64,000 nt of DNA from Herbiconiux gentiana (lineage in GTDB: Bacteria > Actinomycetota > Actinomycetes > Actinomycetales > Microbacteriaceae): assembly GCF_024978135.1 (NCBI RefSeq), contig NZ_JANTEZ010000011.1:1-64000 (forward strand). Reading direction: 5' to 3'. Under the pieces are notes generated by a model, which worked only from the letters and a program-made list of their open reading frames with translations, searched no databases and was not told the origin of the DNA. Below are positions 38,025 to 48,521 of the stretch, in pieces (position 1 is the stretch's first letter; every line of letters begins with the position of its first letter). The translations under genes were made by a program, and so were the position numbers.

Positions 38025-41519
<3,495 letters not shown>

Positions 41520-41531
41520 TGGCACCACCCC

Positions 41532-41580: not shown

Positions 41581-41638
41581 TCGAGCCGTCGCAAACCGCC
41601 CTCTCGCGCCTCTGAGAGGGCGATTTGCGACGGCTCGA
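41581..41638. repeat. Palindromic element, copy A (58 nt)
   Basis: Two 25-nt arms (41581-41605 and 41614-41638) pair with one C-A mismatch at arm position 16; the 8-nt loop is GCGCCTCT. Arms begin TCGAGCCGTCG and end CGCCCTCTC. A related element with identical geometry lies at 48464-48521. Copy A lies between convergent ilvC and lacI-type genes, 7 bp before the latter's stop. Confidence 0.9.
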
Positions 41639-41644
41639 CGGGCG

Positions 41645-42691
41645 CTACGGGGTGGGGAGGGGCGCCGGGGAGCGGAGGACCAGGCGGGGGCGGACGAGGC
41701 GGTGGCGGGGGTCGGTCGCCGGGCCCGCGTCGGGGCGGCCGCGGTGGGCGCCCGTGAGCAGCTCGAGCACGCCGGAGGCGACCTCGTCGAGCGGCTGCTC
41801 GACGCTCGAGAGTCCGAGGGCCTGGGCGACGGGGGTGTTGTCGTAGCCGATCACGGGGATCGCGCCCGCCGAGGCGATCAGGGCGCCGAGCGCGAGGGAG
41901 TCCGAGGCGCAGACGACGGCGTCCACGGGATCGACGCCGGGGCTCCCGGCGAGCAGGGCGCGGAGGGCGGCGCCGCCCGGGGTGACGCCGTCGGGGGTGG
42001 CGATCGCGAGGGGCGCGAGCTGAGCATCCGTGAGCCCGCTGCCGGCGAGCATGGCGTCGTGCCAGCCGCGACGGCGGTCGTCGCCGGTGCCGGAGGGGCT
42101 CGGCCAGCCGATGTAGCCGACGCGCCGGCGGCCCTGGGCGAGCAGCGCGGTCGTCGCCTCGTGCAGCCCCCACCAGCCGTCGACATCGACCCAGAGGTGC
42201 GCGGGGTCGTTCATGTCGTCGATGCCCCAGGGTCGCCCGAAGGTGACGAACGACTGCTCGTTCTCGATCAGCCACTCGGTGCGCGGGTCGCCGTGGAAGG
42301 TGCTCGTGAGCACGAAGGCGTCGACGTCGGCGCCGTCACGCAGGCGGGCGAACTGGCGGATCTCGTCGTCGGGGTCGGTCGCGGTGAAGAGCATCACGCG
42401 AAGGCCTTGAGCCGCAGCCTGCTCGGTGAGGGCGTGCAGGAAGCGGTCGAGAACGCTGCCCGAGATGCCGTCGGTCATCGGGTCGATGCGGATGCCGATT
42501 GTCGAGCTCTTGCGGGTGCGCAGACGGCGCGCGGACTCGTGCGGGCGGTAGCCCAGCTCGGCGATCGCGGTGGTGACCCGGTCGCGGGTGTCGGGCCGCA
42601 CGATGTCGGGGGAGTTCAGCACGTTCGACACCGTCTGGCGCGAGACACCGGCGACCCGGGCGACGTCGTGGATGGTGGGGAGTGCGCCCAT
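41645..42691 (-). CDS. LacI family sugar-operon regulator
   Basis: From the ATG at 42691, preceded by AGGAGGG, the protein has 348 residues. The N-terminal helix-turn-helix is TIHDVARVAGVSRQTVSNVL; then comes the periplasmic-binding-like effector domain (STIGIRIDPMTDG, VVCASDSLALGALIASAG, IGYDNTPVAQALGLSSVEQP). The ligand is probably the sugar imported by the divergent ABC system. The operator-like repeat at 42801-42818 lies between the two genes. Residues upstream of this ATG in the longer frame are not needed. Confidence 0.92.
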   Translation of the reverse strand: MGALPTIHDVARVAGVSRQTVSNVLNSPDIVRPDTRDRVTTAIAELGYRPHESARRLRTRKSSTIGIRIDPMTDGISGSVLDRFLHALTEQAAAQGLRVMLFTATDPDDEIRQFARLRDGADVDAFVLTSTFHGDPRTEWLIENEQSFVTFGRPWGIDDMNDPAHLWVDVDGWWGLHEATTALLAQGRRRVGYIGWPSPSGTGDDRRRGWHDAMLAGSGLTDAQLAPLAIATPDGVTPGGAALRALLAGSPGVDPVDAVVCASDSLALGALIASAGAIPVIGYDNTPVAQALGLSSVEQPLDEVASGVLELLTGAHRGRPDAGPATDPRHRLVRPRLVLRSPAPLPTP

Positions 42692-42784
42692 GCTCACCCT
42701 CCTGTCGCGTCGGCGGACTGTCCGTTTCACGAGGCTAACACCCGCGCCGCGCCTCGATCGGTTGCACAGCCGAAGCCCCCGGGT

Positions 42785-42818
42785 TAGGCTGGCGAGCAGG
42801 AATTTGAACGATCAAATT
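42785..42818 (+). promoter_or_regulatory. Promoter -10 and LacI-type operator of the sugar ABC operon
   Basis: TAGGCT (42785-42790) is followed by AATTTGA-ACGA-TCAAATT (42801-42818), a 7-bp inverted repeat with a 4-bp centre. It stands out as AT-rich in GC-rich DNA and has the size of LacI-family operators. It lies at about the transcription start, so binding would block initiation of the binding-protein gene at 42835. Confidence 0.75.
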
Positions 42819-42834
42819 GCACAAGGAGAACACC

Positions 42835-44076
42835 ATGCAACGACGCAGCTCCCTTGCCGTCGCGCTCGGCCTCGCCGCCGCGACCGCACTCACCCTCTCG
42901 GCCTGCGGCTCGGGCTTCGACGACGCCGGCTCGACCGGCGCCGCCCAGGACGACAGCGCCGGCCTCACCGTGCTGATCGGCTCGAGCGGCGACGCCGAGA
43001 CCAAGGCCGTCACCGACGCCGTGGCGTCCTGGTCGGAGGAGTCGGGCACGGAGGCCACTCTCAACACGGCCTCCGACCTCAACCAGCAGCTCAGCCAGGG
43101 CTTCGCCAGCGGCAAGCCGGCCGACGTCTTCTACGTCTCGACCGACGCCCTCGCAGGCTACGCCGCCAACGGCTCGCTGTACCCCTACGGCGACCAGCTC
43201 TCGAACAAGGACGACTTCTACCCGACCCTCGTCGACTCCTTCACCTACGACGGCCAGTTCTACTGCGCCCCGAAGGACTTCTCGACCCTCGCCCTGATCA
43301 TCAACACCGACCTGTGGACGGCCGCCGGCCTCACCGACGCCGACGTGCCGACCACCTGGGACCAGCTGACCGCCGTCGCGCAGAAGCTGACCACCCCCGA
43401 GCACGTCGGACTGGCCTTCTCTCCCGAATACGCCCGGGTCGGCGCCTTCATGGCCGAGGCGGGCGGCAGCCTGCTGAACGCCGACGGCACCGAGGCCACG
43501 GTCGACAGCCCCGAGAACCTGAAGGCGCTCGAGTACGTCAAGTCGCTGTTCAGCTCGGGGGTCGCGAAGTACTCCTCCGACCTCGGGGCCGGCTGGGGCG
43601 GCGAGGCCTTCGGCAAGGGCCAGGCCGCGATGACCATCGAGGGCAACTGGATCGCCGGCGGCCTGCAGGCCGACTACCCCGACGTGAAGTACACGGTCGC
43701 CTCCCTGCCCGCGGGCCCCGGCGGTGAGGGCACGCTCCAGTTCAGCAACTGCTGGGGCATCGCCGCCGACAGCCCCAATCAGGAGGCCGCCCTCGCCCTG
43801 GTCGAGAAGCTGACGAGCACCGACCAGCAGCTCGCCTTCGCCAAGGCTTTCGGCGTGATGCCGTCGGTGCAGTCGGCCGCCGAGCAGTGGAAGACCGAGA
43901 ACCCCGACAAGGCCGCCTTCCTCGACTCCGCCGACTACGCCCAGGGCGTGCCGACCCTCGAGGGCTCGGCCGACGTGATCAAGGACCTCAACTCGCAGCT
44001 GGAGTCGCTGTCCACCGGTGACCCTGCCGCGATCCTCGAGACCGCGCAGAAGAACATGGAGGCGATCGTCCAGTAG
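42835..44076 (+). CDS. Sugar ABC transporter substrate-binding lipoprotein
   Basis: A 413-residue family 1 solute-binding protein. The signal ends LTLSAC with lipid Cys24. The mature part has SGKPADVFYVSTDALAGYA, KDFSTLALIINTDLW and FSNCWGIAADSPNQEAALAL, typical for oligosaccharide or monosaccharide-binding proteins of the MalE/UgpB group. AAGGAG precedes the ATG. It is first in an operon with two permeases and a glycosidase and lacks an ATPase, which in actinobacteria is usually supplied by a shared MsiK-type protein. The substrate is probably an alpha-glucoside, inferred from the glycosidase. Confidence 0.92.
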   Translation: MQRRSSLAVALGLAAATALTLSACGSGFDDAGSTGAAQDDSAGLTVLIGSSGDAETKAVTDAVASWSEESGTEATLNTASDLNQQLSQGFASGKPADVFYVSTDALAGYAANGSLYPYGDQLSNKDDFYPTLVDSFTYDGQFYCAPKDFSTLALIINTDLWTAAGLTDADVPTTWDQLTAVAQKLTTPEHVGLAFSPEYARVGAFMAEAGGSLLNADGTEATVDSPENLKALEYVKSLFSSGVAKYSSDLGAGWGGEAFGKGQAAMTIEGNWIAGGLQADYPDVKYTVASLPAGPGGEGTLQFSNCWGIAADSPNQEAALALVEKLTSTDQQLAFAKAFGVMPSVQSAAEQWKTENPDKAAFLDSADYAQGVPTLEGSADVIKDLNSQLESLSTGDPAAILETAQKNMEAIVQ

Positions 44077-44121
44077 GACGGTCGGACCCGTGATCGCGAC
44101 AACGAGGTCGAGGAGGATCGA

Positions 44122-45303
44122 ATGAGTGCATCCGTGACGGTGCCGCCCACCGCGGCGGCACCCGGCGGCCCCGGGCCCGGCGGGAAGAGCGCCAAGAGGC
44201 CGTCGAGCAGCGGCCGCCGCGCCCCGAAGGGCATCCGCCGCTCGGAGGGCATCGCCGGCTGGCTGTTCACCGCGCCGATGCTGATCATCCTCGGCCTCTT
44301 TCTCGTCGTGCCGGTGCTGATGGCCCTGTGGGTCAGCTTCTCCGACTGGTCGGGCCGGGGGAGTCCTTTCGCGTCGAGCGTCAACTTCGTCGGCCTCGAC
44401 AACTACGACCAGCTGCTCGCCGGCGGCGGGCTCGCCGAACGCGACTTCGGCGTCGCCCTCCGCAACAACGCCTGGTACGTGCTGCTCGTGGTGCCGATCC
44501 AGACTGCGCTGTCGCTGTTCCTGGCCGTGCTGGTGAACCGGCAGGTGCTGAAGGGGCGCGGGTTCTTCCGCACCGCGTTCTACTTCCCGAGCGTGACCAG
44601 TTCGGTGGCCATCACGGTGCTGTGGCTCTTCCTCTTCGGAGCATCCGGAGCCGTCAACAAGGTGCTGTCGTGGTTCGGCGTCAACGGCCCGAACTGGTTC
44701 CAGGACCCGTCGGGCGTCGTGCACAACCTGCTCGCCGCCGTCGGCATCACGCAGGGCCCGGCCTGGATGACCGAGAACACCACACTCGGCGTCTCGTGGT
44801 GGGACTGGTGGGCGGGGCCGAGCGTCGCGATGTCGGCGTTCGTGCTGATGGCCGTGTTCACCACCTCCGGCACCTTCATGCTGCTGTTCATCGCGGCGCT
44901 GCAGAACCTCGGCGGCGACGTGCAGGAGGCGGCGATGATCGACGGCGCCAACGGCTGGCAGCGCTTCTGGCGGGTCACCCTGCCGCAGCTGAGGCCGACT
45001 CTGTTCACCGTGCTCACGCTCGGTCTGATCGGCACCTGGCAGGTGTTCGACCAGATCTACACCGGCACGCAGGGCGGTCCGGGCAAGACCACGGTCACTC
45101 CCGCCTACCTCTCGTACACCTCGGCGTTCGAGAGCCAGGACTGGGGCCGCGGCGCCGCGATCGCGTTCGTGCTGTTCGTGATCATCGTGGTGCTGACGAT
45201 CATCCAGCGCATCGTGCTGCGCGACCGGCCGGTGTCGAAGCGACGGATGCGCGCCTACAGCATCGCGAGCAGCCAGACCGCGAACAAGGAGGGCCGGGCA
45301 TGA
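44122..45303 (+). CDS. Sugar ABC transporter permease, MalF type
   Basis: A 393-residue permease with a ~45-residue polar Pro/Gly/Lys head and six or seven hydrophobic helices (LFTAPMLIILGLFLVVPVLMAL first). The cytoplasmic EAA loop, which contacts the ATPase, is EAAMIDGANGWQRFWRVTLPQL. A large insert around residues 175-235 (WFGVNGPNWFQDPSGV) is typical of the family. GAGGAGGA precedes the ATG. Its stop overlaps the second permease (ATGA). Confidence 0.93.
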   Translation: MSASVTVPPTAAAPGGPGPGGKSAKRPSSSGRRAPKGIRRSEGIAGWLFTAPMLIILGLFLVVPVLMALWVSFSDWSGRGSPFASSVNFVGLDNYDQLLAGGGLAERDFGVALRNNAWYVLLVVPIQTALSLFLAVLVNRQVLKGRGFFRTAFYFPSVTSSVAITVLWLFLFGASGAVNKVLSWFGVNGPNWFQDPSGVVHNLLAAVGITQGPAWMTENTTLGVSWWDWWAGPSVAMSAFVLMAVFTTSGTFMLLFIAALQNLGGDVQEAAMIDGANGWQRFWRVTLPQLRPTLFTVLTLGLIGTWQVFDQIYTGTQGGPGKTTVTPAYLSYTSAFESQDWGRGAAIAFVLFVIIVVLTIIQRIVLRDRPVSKRRMRAYSIASSQTANKEGRA

Positions 45304-46199
45304 GCGCCGCCGTCACGACCGCGCCGGTGACCACCGGCAGAGCGCCGAACAACCGGCGGCCCCGCCGGAGCGGACGCTTCGTCGCGAGCACCTCGGTGCT
45401 CTACGCCATCCTCGTCGTCATCGCGATCGTCTACATCTTCCCGTTCCTGATCGACGTTGCCACCTCGTTCAAGACCGACGCCGAGGCGGCGAGCGACCCG
45501 CTCTCCCTGATCCCGCAGACCTGGACGACGGCCGCCTACGAGCGCCTGTTCCTGAACTCCGACTTCCCGACCTGGTTCGCGAACTCGGCGGTCGTGACGG
45601 TGTTCGTCACCGCCGGGCGGGTGTTCCTCGCCTCCCTCGCCGGGTACGCGCTGGCGCGGCTCGACTTCCGCGGCCGCAACGTCATCTTCGCCGGACTCGT
45701 CGCGGTGATGTCGGTGCCGCTCGTGGTGCTGCTCATCCCGAAGTTCCTCGTGATCAACCAGCTCGGCATCTACGACTCCTACGCGGGCATGATCATCCCG
45801 CTGCTGGTCGACGCCGCCGGGGTGTTCATCATGAAGAACTTCTTCGAGTCGATCCCCGCGAGCGTCGAGGAGCAGGCCCGCATCGACGGCGCCGGCACTT
45901 TCCGCATCTTCTGGTCGGTGGTGCTGCCGATGGCACGGCCCGCGCTGATCACCATCGTGATCCTGTCGTTCCAGGGCTCGTGGAACGAGCTCTCGCACTT
46001 CATCGTCTCGACCCAGTCGCCCGAGCTGACGACGCTCACCAAGGGCGTCGCCTCGCTCGCCTCTGGGCAGCTCAGTCAGGGCACCCAGTATCCGCTGAAG
46101 CTGGCGGCGGCGGCGATCATGACCGTGCCGGTCGCGGTCATGTTCTTCATCTTCCAGCGCCGCATCATGAACGCCAGCGAGGGGGCCGTCAAGGAATGA
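45300..46199 (+). CDS. Sugar ABC transporter permease, MalG type
   Basis: A 299-residue permease with six helices. The N-terminal tail is basic and unstructured; the first helix is VLYAILVVIAIVYIFPFLI. The EAA loop reads EEQARIDGAGTFRIFWSVVLPMARP. The start overlaps the first permease by 4 bp and its stop overlaps the glycosidase start (ATGA at 46196), so all three are coupled. Confidence 0.93.
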   Translation: MSAAVTTAPVTTGRAPNNRRPRRSGRFVASTSVLYAILVVIAIVYIFPFLIDVATSFKTDAEAASDPLSLIPQTWTTAAYERLFLNSDFPTWFANSAVVTVFVTAGRVFLASLAGYALARLDFRGRNVIFAGLVAVMSVPLVVLLIPKFLVINQLGIYDSYAGMIIPLLVDAAGVFIMKNFFESIPASVEEQARIDGAGTFRIFWSVVLPMARPALITIVILSFQGSWNELSHFIVSTQSPELTTLTKGVASLASGQLSQGTQYPLKLAAAAIMTVPVAVMFFIFQRRIMNASEGAVKE

Positions 46200-48454
46200 C
46201 CGCCGTGCTCCCCTCCCCGTCGACCTCCCAGGAGATCCCCGCCATGCCCCTGCCCTCGCAGCCCGTGCAGCCTCTGCAGCCCTTCCTCAACGACGCCACC
46301 GTGGTGCTCGCCGCGCCGACCCAGGCGTGGTCGGCGGCCTCGGGGGCGATGACGGAGTCGATCCACGGTGTCTACCACTCCGACTCGCGGGTCGTTCGCG
46401 GTCTCGCCCTCGAGGTCGGCGGGTCGGCGGTCGAGACGGTCTCGCACTCGGTCGTCGACGCGTCGACCACCGTGTTCACGGCTTTGGTGCGCTCGATCGA
46501 CGACTCGAGCGCCGACCCGCGGGTGCGCCTCGACCTGCGCCGCTCGGTGGCGCCGGGCGGTCTCGCCGAGCGGCTGCGGTTCAGCTCGGCGCTGGGGCAC
46601 GAGGTGGTCACCGAGGTGCGGCTGACCCTCGTCGCCGACGGGGCGCCGATGCAGGTCGTGAAGGCGGGGCTCGCGGGCTCCGGCGTCGACACGGCTCCGG
46701 ATGCCCGTGCCGCCCTCCCGGCGGTGACCGCCGTCACCCGTGACGGGGCCGTGCTCCTCGCGGCCGGCAGCTGGTCGGCGCGGCTCGACGCCCCCGGCGC
46801 GGCGATCGCGGTGGCGGCGCCCGGATCGGCCGCCGCGGCCGACGCCGAGGCGCCCGACCGCGCATCCGTCGCCGACGCCGAGGGGCCGGCTCGCGCCGCC
46901 GTCGCCGACGCCGAGGGGCCCGCCCGCGCATCCGTCGCCGACCCCGCCGCCCGCGTCACCCTCACCTGGCCGCTGGTCATACCGGCGCACGGCACCGCCA
47001 TGCTCACCTGGGCGCTCGCGCTCGACGACCGGGCCGCCGTCGTGACGGGTGCCTCCGGCTCGCCCGAGTGGGCCGACGCCAGCGTCGACGCCGGCGACAG
47101 CCGCCTCGCCCGGTGGAACCGCCGCGCCCTCGACGACCTCACCGCCCTGCGGATGGAGACGAGCCGCGCCCCGGGCGAGCCCTTCCTCGCGGCCGGCGCG
47201 CCCTGGTTCTTCACCCTGTTCGGCCGCGACTCGCTCTGGGCCGCCCGCCTGCTGCTGCCGCTCGGCACCGAGCTCGCCGCCTCGACCCTGCGCGTGCTCG
47301 CCGGGCTGCAGGGCGAGCGCACGGTGGGGGAGACCGCCGAGCAGCCGGGCAAGATCATGCACGAACTCCGCCCCGGCGAGCTCCGGATGCCGGGGGAGGG
47401 CATCACGCTCCCTCCGCTCTACTACGGCACCGTCGACGCCACCGCCCTCTGGGTCGTGCTGCTCGCCGAGGCGCGTCGCTGGGGGCTGTCCGACGACGAG
47501 GTGCGGCCGCTGCTGCCGAACCTCAGGCGCGCCCTCGAGTGGATGCGCGACCACGGCGACAGCGACGGCGACGGCTTCCTCGAGTACGCCGACACGACGG
47601 GGCACGGTCTCGCGAACCAGGGCTGGAAGGACTCCGGCGACTCGGTGCAGTGGCGCGACGGACGCCTCGCCGAGGGCCCGATCGCCCTCTGCGAGGTGCA
47701 GGGCTACGCCTACCAGGCGGCCGTCGAGGGGGCCGAGCTGCTCGACGCGTTCGGCGAGCCGGGCGGAGACGAGTGGCGTGCCTGGGCGGCGGCGCTCGCC
47801 GATCGCTTCCGGGCCTCCTTCTGGATCGAGCACGACGGCGGCCGCTACCCCGCGATCGCGCTCGACGCGGCGAAGCGACCGGTGGACACGCTGACCAGCA
47901 ACATCGGGCACCTGCTCGGCACGGGCATCCTGAACGCCGACGAGGCCGCCGACGTCGCCCGGCTGCTCGTCGACGAGCGGCTCGACTCGGGTTTCGGCCT
48001 GCGCACCATGGCCACCGACTCGGCCGGATTCTGGCCGCTCAGCTACCACGGCGGCACCGTCTGGGCGCACGACACGGCCATCGCGGTGCAGGGGCTCGCC
48101 CGGGAGGGCTTCCGCGCCGAGGCCGCGACGCTCGGCCGGGGGCTGCTGCGCGCGGCCGAGGCGTTCGGCTACCGCATGCCCGAGCTGCACTCCGGCGACT
48201 CGGCGGCGGTCGTCGACGTGCCGGCGCCGTACCCCGCGGCGTGCCGGCCGCAGGCGTGGTCGGCGGCGGCCGCCGTGGCGGTGGCGGTGGCGGCGACGGA
48301 TGCGCGTCCCGCGCCCGACCGCCGGACCCTCCTCGTGGCGCCGCTCGCCGACGCCGCCCTCGGCCACGTCACGATCGACGGCCTCCGCGTCGCGGGCCGC
48401 CCCTTCCGCGTGGACGCGACCCCCACCTCGGCGACGGCCACCCCGCACACCTGA
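46196..48454 (+). CDS. Glycogen-debranching-type glycosidase
   Basis: A 752-residue protein. The N-terminal domain (about 25-290) fits the glycogen debranching enzyme N-terminal family (HGVYHSDSRVVRGLALEVGG). The C-terminal (alpha/alpha)6 barrel contains PWFFTLFGRDSLWAARLLLP, GEGITLPPLYYGTVDATALWVVLLAE and NQGWKDSGDSVQW, typical of amylo-alpha-1,6-glucosidase-like enzymes. An 11-residue unit (DAEGPARASVA) is repeated three times at about 220-252. No signal peptide, so the imported oligosaccharide is cut in the cytoplasm. Exact specificity is unknown. Confidence 0.85.
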   Translation: MTAVLPSPSTSQEIPAMPLPSQPVQPLQPFLNDATVVLAAPTQAWSAASGAMTESIHGVYHSDSRVVRGLALEVGGSAVETVSHSVVDASTTVFTALVRSIDDSSADPRVRLDLRRSVAPGGLAERLRFSSALGHEVVTEVRLTLVADGAPMQVVKAGLAGSGVDTAPDARAALPAVTAVTRDGAVLLAAGSWSARLDAPGAAIAVAAPGSAAAADAEAPDRASVADAEGPARAAVADAEGPARASVADPAARVTLTWPLVIPAHGTAMLTWALALDDRAAVVTGASGSPEWADASVDAGDSRLARWNRRALDDLTALRMETSRAPGEPFLAAGAPWFFTLFGRDSLWAARLLLPLGTELAASTLRVLAGLQGERTVGETAEQPGKIMHELRPGELRMPGEGITLPPLYYGTVDATALWVVLLAEARRWGLSDDEVRPLLPNLRRALEWMRDHGDSDGDGFLEYADTTGHGLANQGWKDSGDSVQWRDGRLAEGPIALCEVQGYAYQAAVEGAELLDAFGEPGGDEWRAWAAALADRFRASFWIEHDGGRYPAIALDAAKRPVDTLTSNIGHLLGTGILNADEAADVARLLVDERLDSGFGLRTMATDSAGFWPLSYHGGTVWAHDTAIAVQGLAREGFRAEAATLGRGLLRAAEAFGYRMPELHSGDSAAVVDVPAPYPAACRPQAWSAAAAVAVAVAATDARPAPDRRTLLVAPLADAALGHVTIDGLRVAGRPFRVDATPTSATATPHT
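46836..46942 (+). repeat. Three 33-bp in-frame repeats in the glycosidase gene
   Basis: The segment encodes DAEAPDRASVA, DAEGPARAAVA and DAEGPARASVA in succession; DNA copies share GCCGACGCCGAGG. As each unit is 33 bp, copy-number changes keep the frame. It lies in a loop of the N-terminal beta domain. Confidence 0.8.
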
Positions 48455-48463
48455 CGCCGACCA

Positions 48464-48521
48464 TCGAACCGTCGAAAAACGCCCTCTCGGGGTCGGGAGA
48501 GGGCGATTTTCGACGGCTCGA
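48464..48521. repeat. Palindromic element, copy B (58 nt)
   Basis: Arms at 48464-48488 and 48497-48521, loop GGGGTCGG. Arms begin TCGAACCGTCG and end CGCCCTCTC; mismatches lie at positions 5 (A-C) and 16 (A-A). Relative to copy A, the base pair at position 12 is A-T instead of C-G, a compensated change. It starts 9 nt after the glycosidase stop. Confidence 0.9.

Follow-up and report, generated by a model that had tools for sequence, protein, structure and literature searches.

Palindromic repeats of Herbiconiux gentiana share their arms with the flanks of an EDxHD/Vsr-like nuclease gene and look like a nuclease-based counterpart of REPIN/RAYT mobile repeats

In the REPtron, as described in PMC3116915 and PMC8266576, a resident RAYT (TnpAREP) gene is accompanied by its own palindrome type with scattered extragenic copies, and enzyme and repeat co-evolve. 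A GTAG or CGTC tag is present in most REPs of one survey (Di Nocera et al. 2013), which describes those tagged with CGTC as palindromic, located downstream of genes and apparently without a dedicated transposase (PMC3733652); the main text of that article has 0 occurrences of Actinobacteria and 0 of Vsr. Among nucleases, members of the I-Bth0305I family reportedly form dimers on a target just under 60 bp long (PMC3943268), and AbiEi antitoxins are described as binding inverted repeats in the promoter from which they are themselves expressed (PMC7319586).

The palindromes analysed here, of which three types (A, B and C) were distinguished in the source genome, resemble the REPtron (REPINs/REPs plus RAYT) of those accounts in having a resident single-copy enzyme gene adjoined by a palindrome type specific to it, several such enzyme–palindrome pairs per genome with scattered copies (three in the source genome, four in 800 kb of genome G202), extragenic inverted repeats at gene ends, and apparent enzyme–repeat co-evolution. 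They differ in that the enzyme is an EDxHD/Vsr-like nuclease rather than a Y1/HUH transposase, with no Y1/HUH gene found flanked, that the repeat is one continuous 25+8+25 palindrome, and that the host phylum is Actinomycetota. With the CGTC-tagged REPs, as far as the survey describes them, they share the position downstream of genes and CGTC in the type A arms; unlike these, they have a dedicated enzyme gene, and neither GTAG nor CGTC occurs in the type B and type C consensus arms (read by eye; single copies may carry them). The predicted fold of the catalytic domain and an EDxHD-like motif, read by eye, are shared with the EDxHD homing endonuclease I-Bth0305I, but the nuclease here was not seen in an intron or intein, its N-terminal part is partly AbiEi-like and its genome holds many cognate palindrome copies. 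Classical homing genes sit inside the target that they interrupt, whereas nuclease genes with both flanks lie between two complete palindromes. The similarity of the N-terminal part of some nucleases to the AbiEi antitoxin recalls AbiE type IV toxin-antitoxin systems, from which the present genes differ by the fusion of the AbiEi-like part to a nuclease and by palindromes on both sides as well as scattered ones. By sequence, these actinobacterial repeats look like a version of the REPIN/RAYT mobile repeats built around a nuclease; no description of such a nuclease–palindrome pairing was present among the matches listed in a search of titles and abstract starts in the open-access literature.

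The window, a 64,000-nt stretch of Herbiconiux gentiana DNA, contains two type A solo palindromes without assigned strand: copy 1 at 41581–41638 (arms 41581–41605 and 41614–41638, 8-nt centre 41606–41613) and copy 2 at 48464–48521 (arms 48464–48488 and 48497–48521, 8-nt centre 48489–48496). Coordinates, 25+8+25 geometry and sequences of both copies, as given in the initial annotation, were re-read in the DNA and agreed. The three left-arm differences it counted fall at positions 5, 12 and 16. As had been recorded, the pair at position 12 reads C-G in copy 1 and A-T in copy 2, and neither copy pairs at position 16; a further mismatch, at position 5 of copy 2 (A.C), had been overlooked. The right arms are identical except at the base opposite position 12. 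In the window, the 25-nt arm pattern had 4 matches at ≤3 mismatches, versus 0.00 expected (100 shuffles); the palindrome pair is confirmed as real and far above chance. As RNA, the 66-nt stretches gave folding energies between −41 and −57 kcal/mol, with z scores of −6.9 to −10.8. Scanning the window against Rfam at gathering score returned one tRNA and no palindrome family.

At least 18 strong type A copies, both window copies included, were found in the source genome, and two of these flank a single nuclease gene on another contig. The genome has three nuclease paralogs, each with its own palindrome family (A, B, C) and scattered copies; similarity of the window copies to type A arms was 0.92 and 0.96, versus ≤0.58 to types B and C. 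The search of genome and relatives suggested earlier for these repeats thus yielded 18 strong type A copies and presence/absence differences between species, and the description as REP-like or non-autonomous mobile repeats at gene ends stands as far as copy number and species turnover are concerned. Its second part, a RAYT/Y1 partner, does not: the Y1/RAYT transposase (PF01797) was detected in only 1/16 Herbiconiux genomes, and no palindrome was found next to the gene there (the search control was positive in 5/14 known genomes); a Vsr/EDxHD-like nuclease gene is flanked by the repeats instead. The system is therefore no REPtron, despite its REPtron-like layout.

Selection on pairing, proposed from position 12, was assessed in 16 own copies out of 18 type A copies with 500 shuffles. 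Position 12 was paired in 9/16 copies; paired cells amounted to 90.0% versus 88.7% in shuffles (36/500 reached the observed value), two-sided change was seen at 4 pairs versus 3.8, and the covariation score was 0.082 versus 0.062 (26/500). As these statistics lie near those of the shuffles, covariation between two copies alone is not good evidence. At the level of these comparisons, covariation is weak among paralogs and clearer among orthologs, where symmetric two-sided changes were seen in two species; these would be explained equally well by arm-to-arm conversion as by selection.

The nuclease was found in 16/16 Herbiconiux genomes, several paralogs per genome being common. A palindrome lay beside 43 of 46 nuclease spans (upstream of 35, downstream of 40, on both sides of 32) and in 5/89 control windows of the same loci (Fisher p 1.6e-27); the upstream palindrome preceded the matched span by ~51–108 nt, and spans L204, L208 and L209 had no palindrome on either side. 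A nuclease cassette adjoins the citrate synthase gene in 12/16 species, with dapD on the other side in 11/12, and in G201 the dapD–citrate synthase site, at which 11 species have the cassette, is without nuclease and without palindrome. A type A cassette moving freely as a unit within the genus was rejected because the citrate synthase site is kept in 12/16 species. Outside Herbiconiux, both flanks were present at 16/29 loci, with matching arms in 12/16 versus 0/240 between loci. An exact pattern scan of named species genomes returned 7 stretches, all from Herbiconiux, but underestimates the spread since arm sequences change between lineages; a genus-only repeat was rejected, the cassette layout being wider.

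The nuclease flanked by type A palindromes is EDxHD/Vsr-like (DUF559/MTES_1575) with a partly AbiEi-like N terminus, the nuclease domain being C-terminal; a search of four nucleases against NCBIfam gave no useful family. An E-x-D-G-x-x-H-R motif was read by eye as EDxHD-like, a reading that is not exact since the residue following EY varies (D 28, E 6, N 2 in 36 nucleases). The AlphaFold model (pLDDT 94.1) resembled I-Bth0305I (3r3p; Foldseek E 0.15, probability 0.97, TM 0.57 to target), in a match confined to the catalytic domain and ranking behind three worse-fitting mitochondrial ribosomal protein matches. In the PDB structure search with this model nothing was obtained at E 0.001 or better, and a PDB profile match was 3hrl, ‘Endonuclease-Like Protein’, at E 0.036. 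The model thus points to an EDxHD/Vsr-like catalytic domain at fold level only. In six close nuclease gene pairs dN/dS was 0.09–0.33, showing purifying selection in these pairs.

Similarity of left and right arms within a gene had a mean of 0.94 (31/32 pairs at ≥0.8), versus 0.55 between genes (27/992 at ≥0.8), and different nuclease genes of one genome shared arms in 0/52 comparisons. Arm and nuclease divergence were correlated (Mantel r 0.536, reached in 0/2000 permutations). In 800 kb of G202, the four home arm types found 14 palindromes, 4 of them cassette flanks, and 14 foreign arm types found 3. Three palindromes of G011, found with the window-based model, had no match to that genome's own cassette arms, and G207 retains type A copies with no type A nuclease found there. 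These comparisons show that most nuclease genes retain a palindrome sequence specific to them on either side, that the arm sequence changes together with the nuclease protein, and that solo copies, where tested, have the same arms as the cassettes of their genome.

Between species, copy 1 was common to G207 and present in a decayed version in G201, and G201 is the one case suggesting that palindromes decay where the nuclease is broken. Copy 2 had no counterpart at the orthologous position in G201, G207 or G205 and is missing in both closest relatives compared. At orthologous solo sites, turnover of the arm type was seen. Sites lacking the palindrome had ragged edges and differed in net length by 16 to 107 nt rather than by exactly 58, and the site comparisons revealed no target duplication, for which reason classical insertion with target duplication was rejected. 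With such edges and no duplication, insertion and loss are not always distinguishable; as judged from orthologous sites, palindromes have been gained or lost by lineage.

We consider it probable that the palindromes are the solo, non-autonomous part of a two-part element composed of a palindrome-flanked resident nuclease and scattered copies, and we infer that the latter are mobilised by the nuclease. The nuclease, probably a dimer whose subunits would each contact one 25-bp half-site on either side of the variable 8-bp centre, would bind and cut the 58-bp palindrome; repair of the cut would then spread palindromes to further sites and write one over another. Newly made copies would persist mainly downstream of genes, where they would do least harm and may also end transcription.

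Placement of the copies bears on the reading, unlikely in our view, that they are bidirectional terminators of convergent genes selected for their hairpin, with the nuclease merely having a terminator on each side. Copy 1 sits between convergent genes, ilvC (ketol-acid reductoisomerase; 40403–41428, + strand) upstream and a lacI-type regulator (41645–42730, − strand) whose stop is 6 nt away, and copy 2 follows by 9 nt the end of a glycogen-debranching-enzyme-like gene (46259–48454, + strand; start codon uncertain). Among 47 own scattered copies, judged with a quick in-house gene caller, 35 lay between convergent and 0 between divergent genes (Fisher p 4e-11 and 1.5e-5); the median distance to a stop codon was 18 nt (n = 47), and 46/47 were outside called genes, with four overlapping a gene end by 10–38 nt. 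These positions, the stable hairpins and a terminator consensus scan that flagged copy 2 on the minus strand, with the T run inside the longer stem, are in keeping with termination, but the scan yielded 4 sites in the window versus 3.9 in shuffles, an ordinary G+C hairpin (read by eye) is already present between ilvC and copy 1, and G207 lives without copy 2 and without five other sites. Moreover, terminators need no genome-wide shared arms matched to one nuclease paralog, and most cassettes have one palindrome upstream of the nuclease (35/46). Termination may be a side function of the palindromes.

The upstream palindromes in 35/46 spans, at the distance given above, together with the co-divergence of arms and protein, also suit a role as operators, by which the AbiEi-like part would repress its own gene and other genes in the manner of AbiEi antitoxins at the inverted repeats of their own promoter (PMC7319586); AbiEi models do match part of the nucleases. 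This we regard as very improbable, given that solo copies avoid divergent promoters (0/47), that a second palindrome is found at the nuclease 3′ end in 40/46, and that the nuclease domain has been conserved, all 36 of 36 sequences sharing its invariant E, G, H, R, Q and D residues. An anti-phage restriction enzyme, with palindromes as decoys or self-marks that travel along but are not mobilised, is hardly to be expected either, as matches of some of the 36 nucleases to defence models (best single AbiEi model 6/36, methyl-directed REase 6/36) and the common occurrence of several paralogs per genome leave unexplained the palindromes on both gene sides, the arm-type turnover at orthologous solo sites and the conserved cassette site beside citrate synthase (12/16 species).

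Within the two-part element of nuclease and palindromes, a more specific and tentative proposal is that of a class of selfish DNA in Actinomycetota whose palindrome would be multiplied by an EDxHD/Vsr-type endonuclease instead of a transposase. A dimer would bind the palindrome and cut within its variable 8-bp centre, and repair of the break would transfer the sequence of one arm to the other and spread palindromes to further sites. If so, all copies would be homogenised to the current nuclease specificity, amounting to genome-wide concerted evolution of the arm ‘dialect’, and new copies would be seeded at convergent gene ends. Where scattered palindromic repeats come without a tyrosine transposase, the two-part element would provide a candidate for the partner enzyme, as well as a second, independent case of enzyme–repeat co-evolution for comparison with REPIN/RAYT, and the specificity of dozens of nucleases would become directly testable. 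For many members of this widespread family, whose only annotation is DUF559/MTES_1575 and which was matched in 113/396 actinobacterial genomes at E 1e-10 or better, the sequences on either side of the gene would allow a substrate to be predicted.

Copies 1 and 2 of the palindrome, at 41581–41638 and 48464–48521, were reproduced as described in the initial annotation (58 nt, 25-nt arms, 8-nt centre), and its comparison with REP-like or non-autonomous mobile repeats held: pattern and covariance searches yielded 18 strong copies of this arm type (type A) in the 3.85-Mb window genome, where the window lies on contig C3; this is a lower bound with 150 of 5112 first-look candidates scored. The arm pattern gave four matches in the window against 0.00 expected by chance, and a scan of named species genomes with the exact palindrome pattern gave seven stretches, in Herbiconiux only. 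Both window copies were assigned to type A with similarities of 0.92 and 0.96, compared with at most 0.58 for the other two arm types of this genome, B and C. Seventeen of the 18 copies are 58 nt long and one is 59 nt; of five weaker places, three match type B too. In all 32 arms of 16 copies, a block AGGGCG, a run GACG and three further single bases are invariant, a few positions are free, and 27 of 40 mismatched cells (one copy at one pair) fall on pairs 5, 12, 16 and 25; each arm thus behaves like an individually conserved half-site.

At C12:309233 and C12:310293, 1.06 kb from each other, type A copies lie on either side of one gene, and the same layout with homologous proteins was found in four other genomes with paired palindrome matches (G155, G194, G118, G022); among the neighbourhood genes of G194 and G118, there was no match besides this one. 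The C terminus of the protein matches DUF559/MTES_1575 (at E 0.01, 25 of the 36 members match MTES_1575 and 22 match DUF559), and part of the proteins resemble AbiEi (best AbiEi model, 6/36). The AlphaFold model was confident (pLDDT 94.1). In a PDB fold search with it, none of the matches reached E 0.001: ranks 1–3 were poorly fitting Toxoplasma mitochondrial ribosomal proteins, PvuRts1I, a restriction enzyme, came fourth, and the catalytic domain of the homing endonuclease I-Bth0305I came fifth (E 0.15, probability 0.97) and eighth (E 0.21, probability 0.96), with TM 0.57 to target. The sequence profile matched 3hrl, a Vsr-size 'Endonuclease-Like Protein', at E 0.036. The motif VEYDGEQHRTD was read by eye as putatively EDxHD-like; of the 36 nucleases, 28 have D directly after EY, 6 have E and 2 have N. 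Six gene pairs, chosen for closeness, gave dN/dS values of 0.09–0.33, and these proteins are therefore kept by selection.

The nuclease was present in all 16 Herbiconiux genomes searched. For 46 nuclease spans, with the fragments of broken genes joined by coordinate and 18 weak partial matches of E 2.7e-8 or weaker left out, palindromes with 20-nt arms, ≤5 mismatches and a spacer of 12–21 were sought within 400 nt and were found upstream of 35, downstream of 40, on both sides of 32 and on at least one side of 43, compared with 5/89 control windows in the same loci. The two flanks of one nuclease are alike (mean arm similarity 0.94; 31/32 at ≥0.8); between different nuclease genes a similarity of ≥0.8 was reached in 27/992 comparisons, and between genes within one genome in 0/52. 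Nuclease identity correlates with arm similarity (Mantel r 0.536, 32 genes, 0/2000 permutations). Two of three weak partial matches inspected also lie between palindromes with common outer arms, at L215:1383–1442 and 2450–2509 in G199 (TCTCCAAACGA) and at L216:873–933 and 1946–2006 in G011 (TTCGCCAC), suggesting that the layout extends to a more distant nuclease subfamily.

The window genome encodes three full-length nuclease paralogs, a fourth match being short (E 0.009). Palindromes with quite different arms adjoin the second (C11:148064–148993, L124; type B) at both ends and the third (C11:122768–123694, L123; type C) at one end, and both types have scattered copies: 57 matches to type B arms against 8 for the reversed-pattern control, and 14 to type C arms against 0. 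Close doublets of type B occur at C12:363008 and 363124 and at C11:152517 and 152562. As a prospective test, the arm types were compared in 800 kb of genome G202, picked for its several cassettes (nuclease gene plus flanking palindromes), two of them in the C4 half. Among 81 palindromes, 14 carried one of four home arm types (5, 2, 4 and 3), four of these being cassette flanks. The 14 foreign arm types, taken from cassettes elsewhere in the genus, matched three, two of these three by the G155 type, which has 17/20 bases in common with the G202 type A arm. Palindromes at L088:4069–4127, L088:4245–4303 and L096:1396–1454 of G155 have a common TCGAGTGAGCGCGAAGTGCC-like arm, with no cassette identified in G155, and may be left over from a type that was lost or not sampled.

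Genes were called with a purpose-written gene caller around 47 placed elements of the window genome (18 type A, 22 type B, 7 type C; five are cassette flanks), type B and C arm matches without enough flank or a clear partner arm being left out. The annotated placement between genes, at their ends, was borne out: 35 elements lie between convergent and 11 between tandem genes, none between divergent genes and one inside a doubtful gene call, with a median distance of 18 nt from a stop codon. Background gaps of ≥20 nt at 22 loci of the same genome were 38 convergent, 93 tandem and 44 divergent (Fisher p 4e-11 for the convergent excess); these loci were fetched around elements and are thus rich in them, which works against the contrast.

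Outside the genus, a 36-sequence nuclease profile matched 113/396 actinobacterial genomes (E 1e-10 or better) in 81/237 genera. One locus from each of the 29 best-scoring other genomes, five in the same family, was searched with a looser criterion (18-nt arms, ≤4 mismatches); palindromes lay to the left in 22, to the right in 16 and on both sides in 16, compared with 9/57 in the control. The two palindromes had arms in common (≥0.8) in 12/16 flank pairs, as against 0/240 comparisons between loci; the four non-matching pairs are probably due to chance.

Within the genus, a cassette adjoins the citrate synthase gene in 12/16 species, with the dapD end on its other side in 11/12 (dapD not within reach in G210). 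In G201 the two genes are in facing orientation and neither a nuclease nor a palindrome separates them; other DNA occupies this site in G207 and G199, and in G205 the contig ends there. The citrate synthase gene is 87–91% identical to that of the window genome in the 11 other cassette species, and the arms differ strongly. They are mostly paired, with standard pairs in 226/264 cells on one side (11 species) and 247/288 on the other (12 species); over all species pairs, which are non-independent, 308 and 437 two-sided changes preserving Watson–Crick pairing were counted, compared with 247 and 223 one-sided changes by which a pair is created or disrupted.

Both flanks of the 47 elements were sought in relatives, and 16 sites were comparable in G207: seven held a same-type palindrome (three cassette flanks; the solo copy C11:138367 in G207's own arm dialect), one another dialect and six none, and two with gaps of ~600 nt were undecided. 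Copy 2 is among the six, and is also missing at the orthologous place in G201 and the more distant G205; 12 other species, with a neighbouring gene not matched well enough, were excluded from this comparison. Absences are ragged at the edges, the net length difference ranging from 16 to 107 nt, and none of the compared sites shows a target duplication. The covariation of arms claimed in the initial annotation was weak between type A paralogs, with pairing of 90.0 vs 88.7% in shuffles (36/500 reach 90.0), but reappeared as symmetric change at sites common with G207. C11:159681 has an identical centre and differs within the palindrome solely at pair 12 (C-G vs A-T), C1:580397 is changed on both sides at pairs 12 and 16, and copy 1 at pair 5. 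One-sided differences occur as well: pair 5 of C1:580397 and pair 16 of copy 1 are intact in G207 and mismatched in the window genome, and G207 has lost the outermost pair of copy 1.

According to a review, I-Bth0305I acts as a dimer whose target is nearly 60 bp long (PMC3943268), and a similar nuclease dimer would fit the 58-bp palindrome as two 25-bp half-sites around a free 8-bp centre. A cut in the centre with repair from the other arm would account both for centres that vary in sequence at a fixed length and for arms that change symmetrically; selection on a hairpin would account for the symmetric changes too. The layout, a resident enzyme together with its own repeat, is that of REPIN/RAYT (PMC3116915), and the system would work like a REPtron. 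However, the Y1 transposase that defines REPtrons, suspected as partner in the initial annotation, occurs in 1/16 Herbiconiux genomes (window genome, C11:24558–24878, L344) with no adjoining palindrome found, and it is an enzyme of another kind that is flanked instead. EDxHD homing endonucleases have the catalytic fold in common with this nuclease, whose gene, unlike theirs, leaves its target uninterrupted. Among the matches listed in the open-access literature, none describes the pairing of nuclease and palindrome; on this basis it is regarded as a new system, though its logic has a known parallel.

At the 3′ end of ilvC, copy 1 is intact in G207 and decayed in G201 (L219), where nuclease genes are partial, split matches only (L213, L214), one case suggesting that palindromes decay without their nuclease. 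No type A palindrome was seen there in 12 other species with ilvC found (not found in G209). G203 (L224), G093 (L227) and G011 (L232) carry palindromes of other types or strong hairpins of unrelated sequence here, as if this end were a repeated target. In the window, the last bases and stop of ilvC (41407–41428) recur ~90 nt downstream at 41499–41520 (GGCAGCGCTGCGCGCTGACCTC; positions by eye), before a G+C hairpin.
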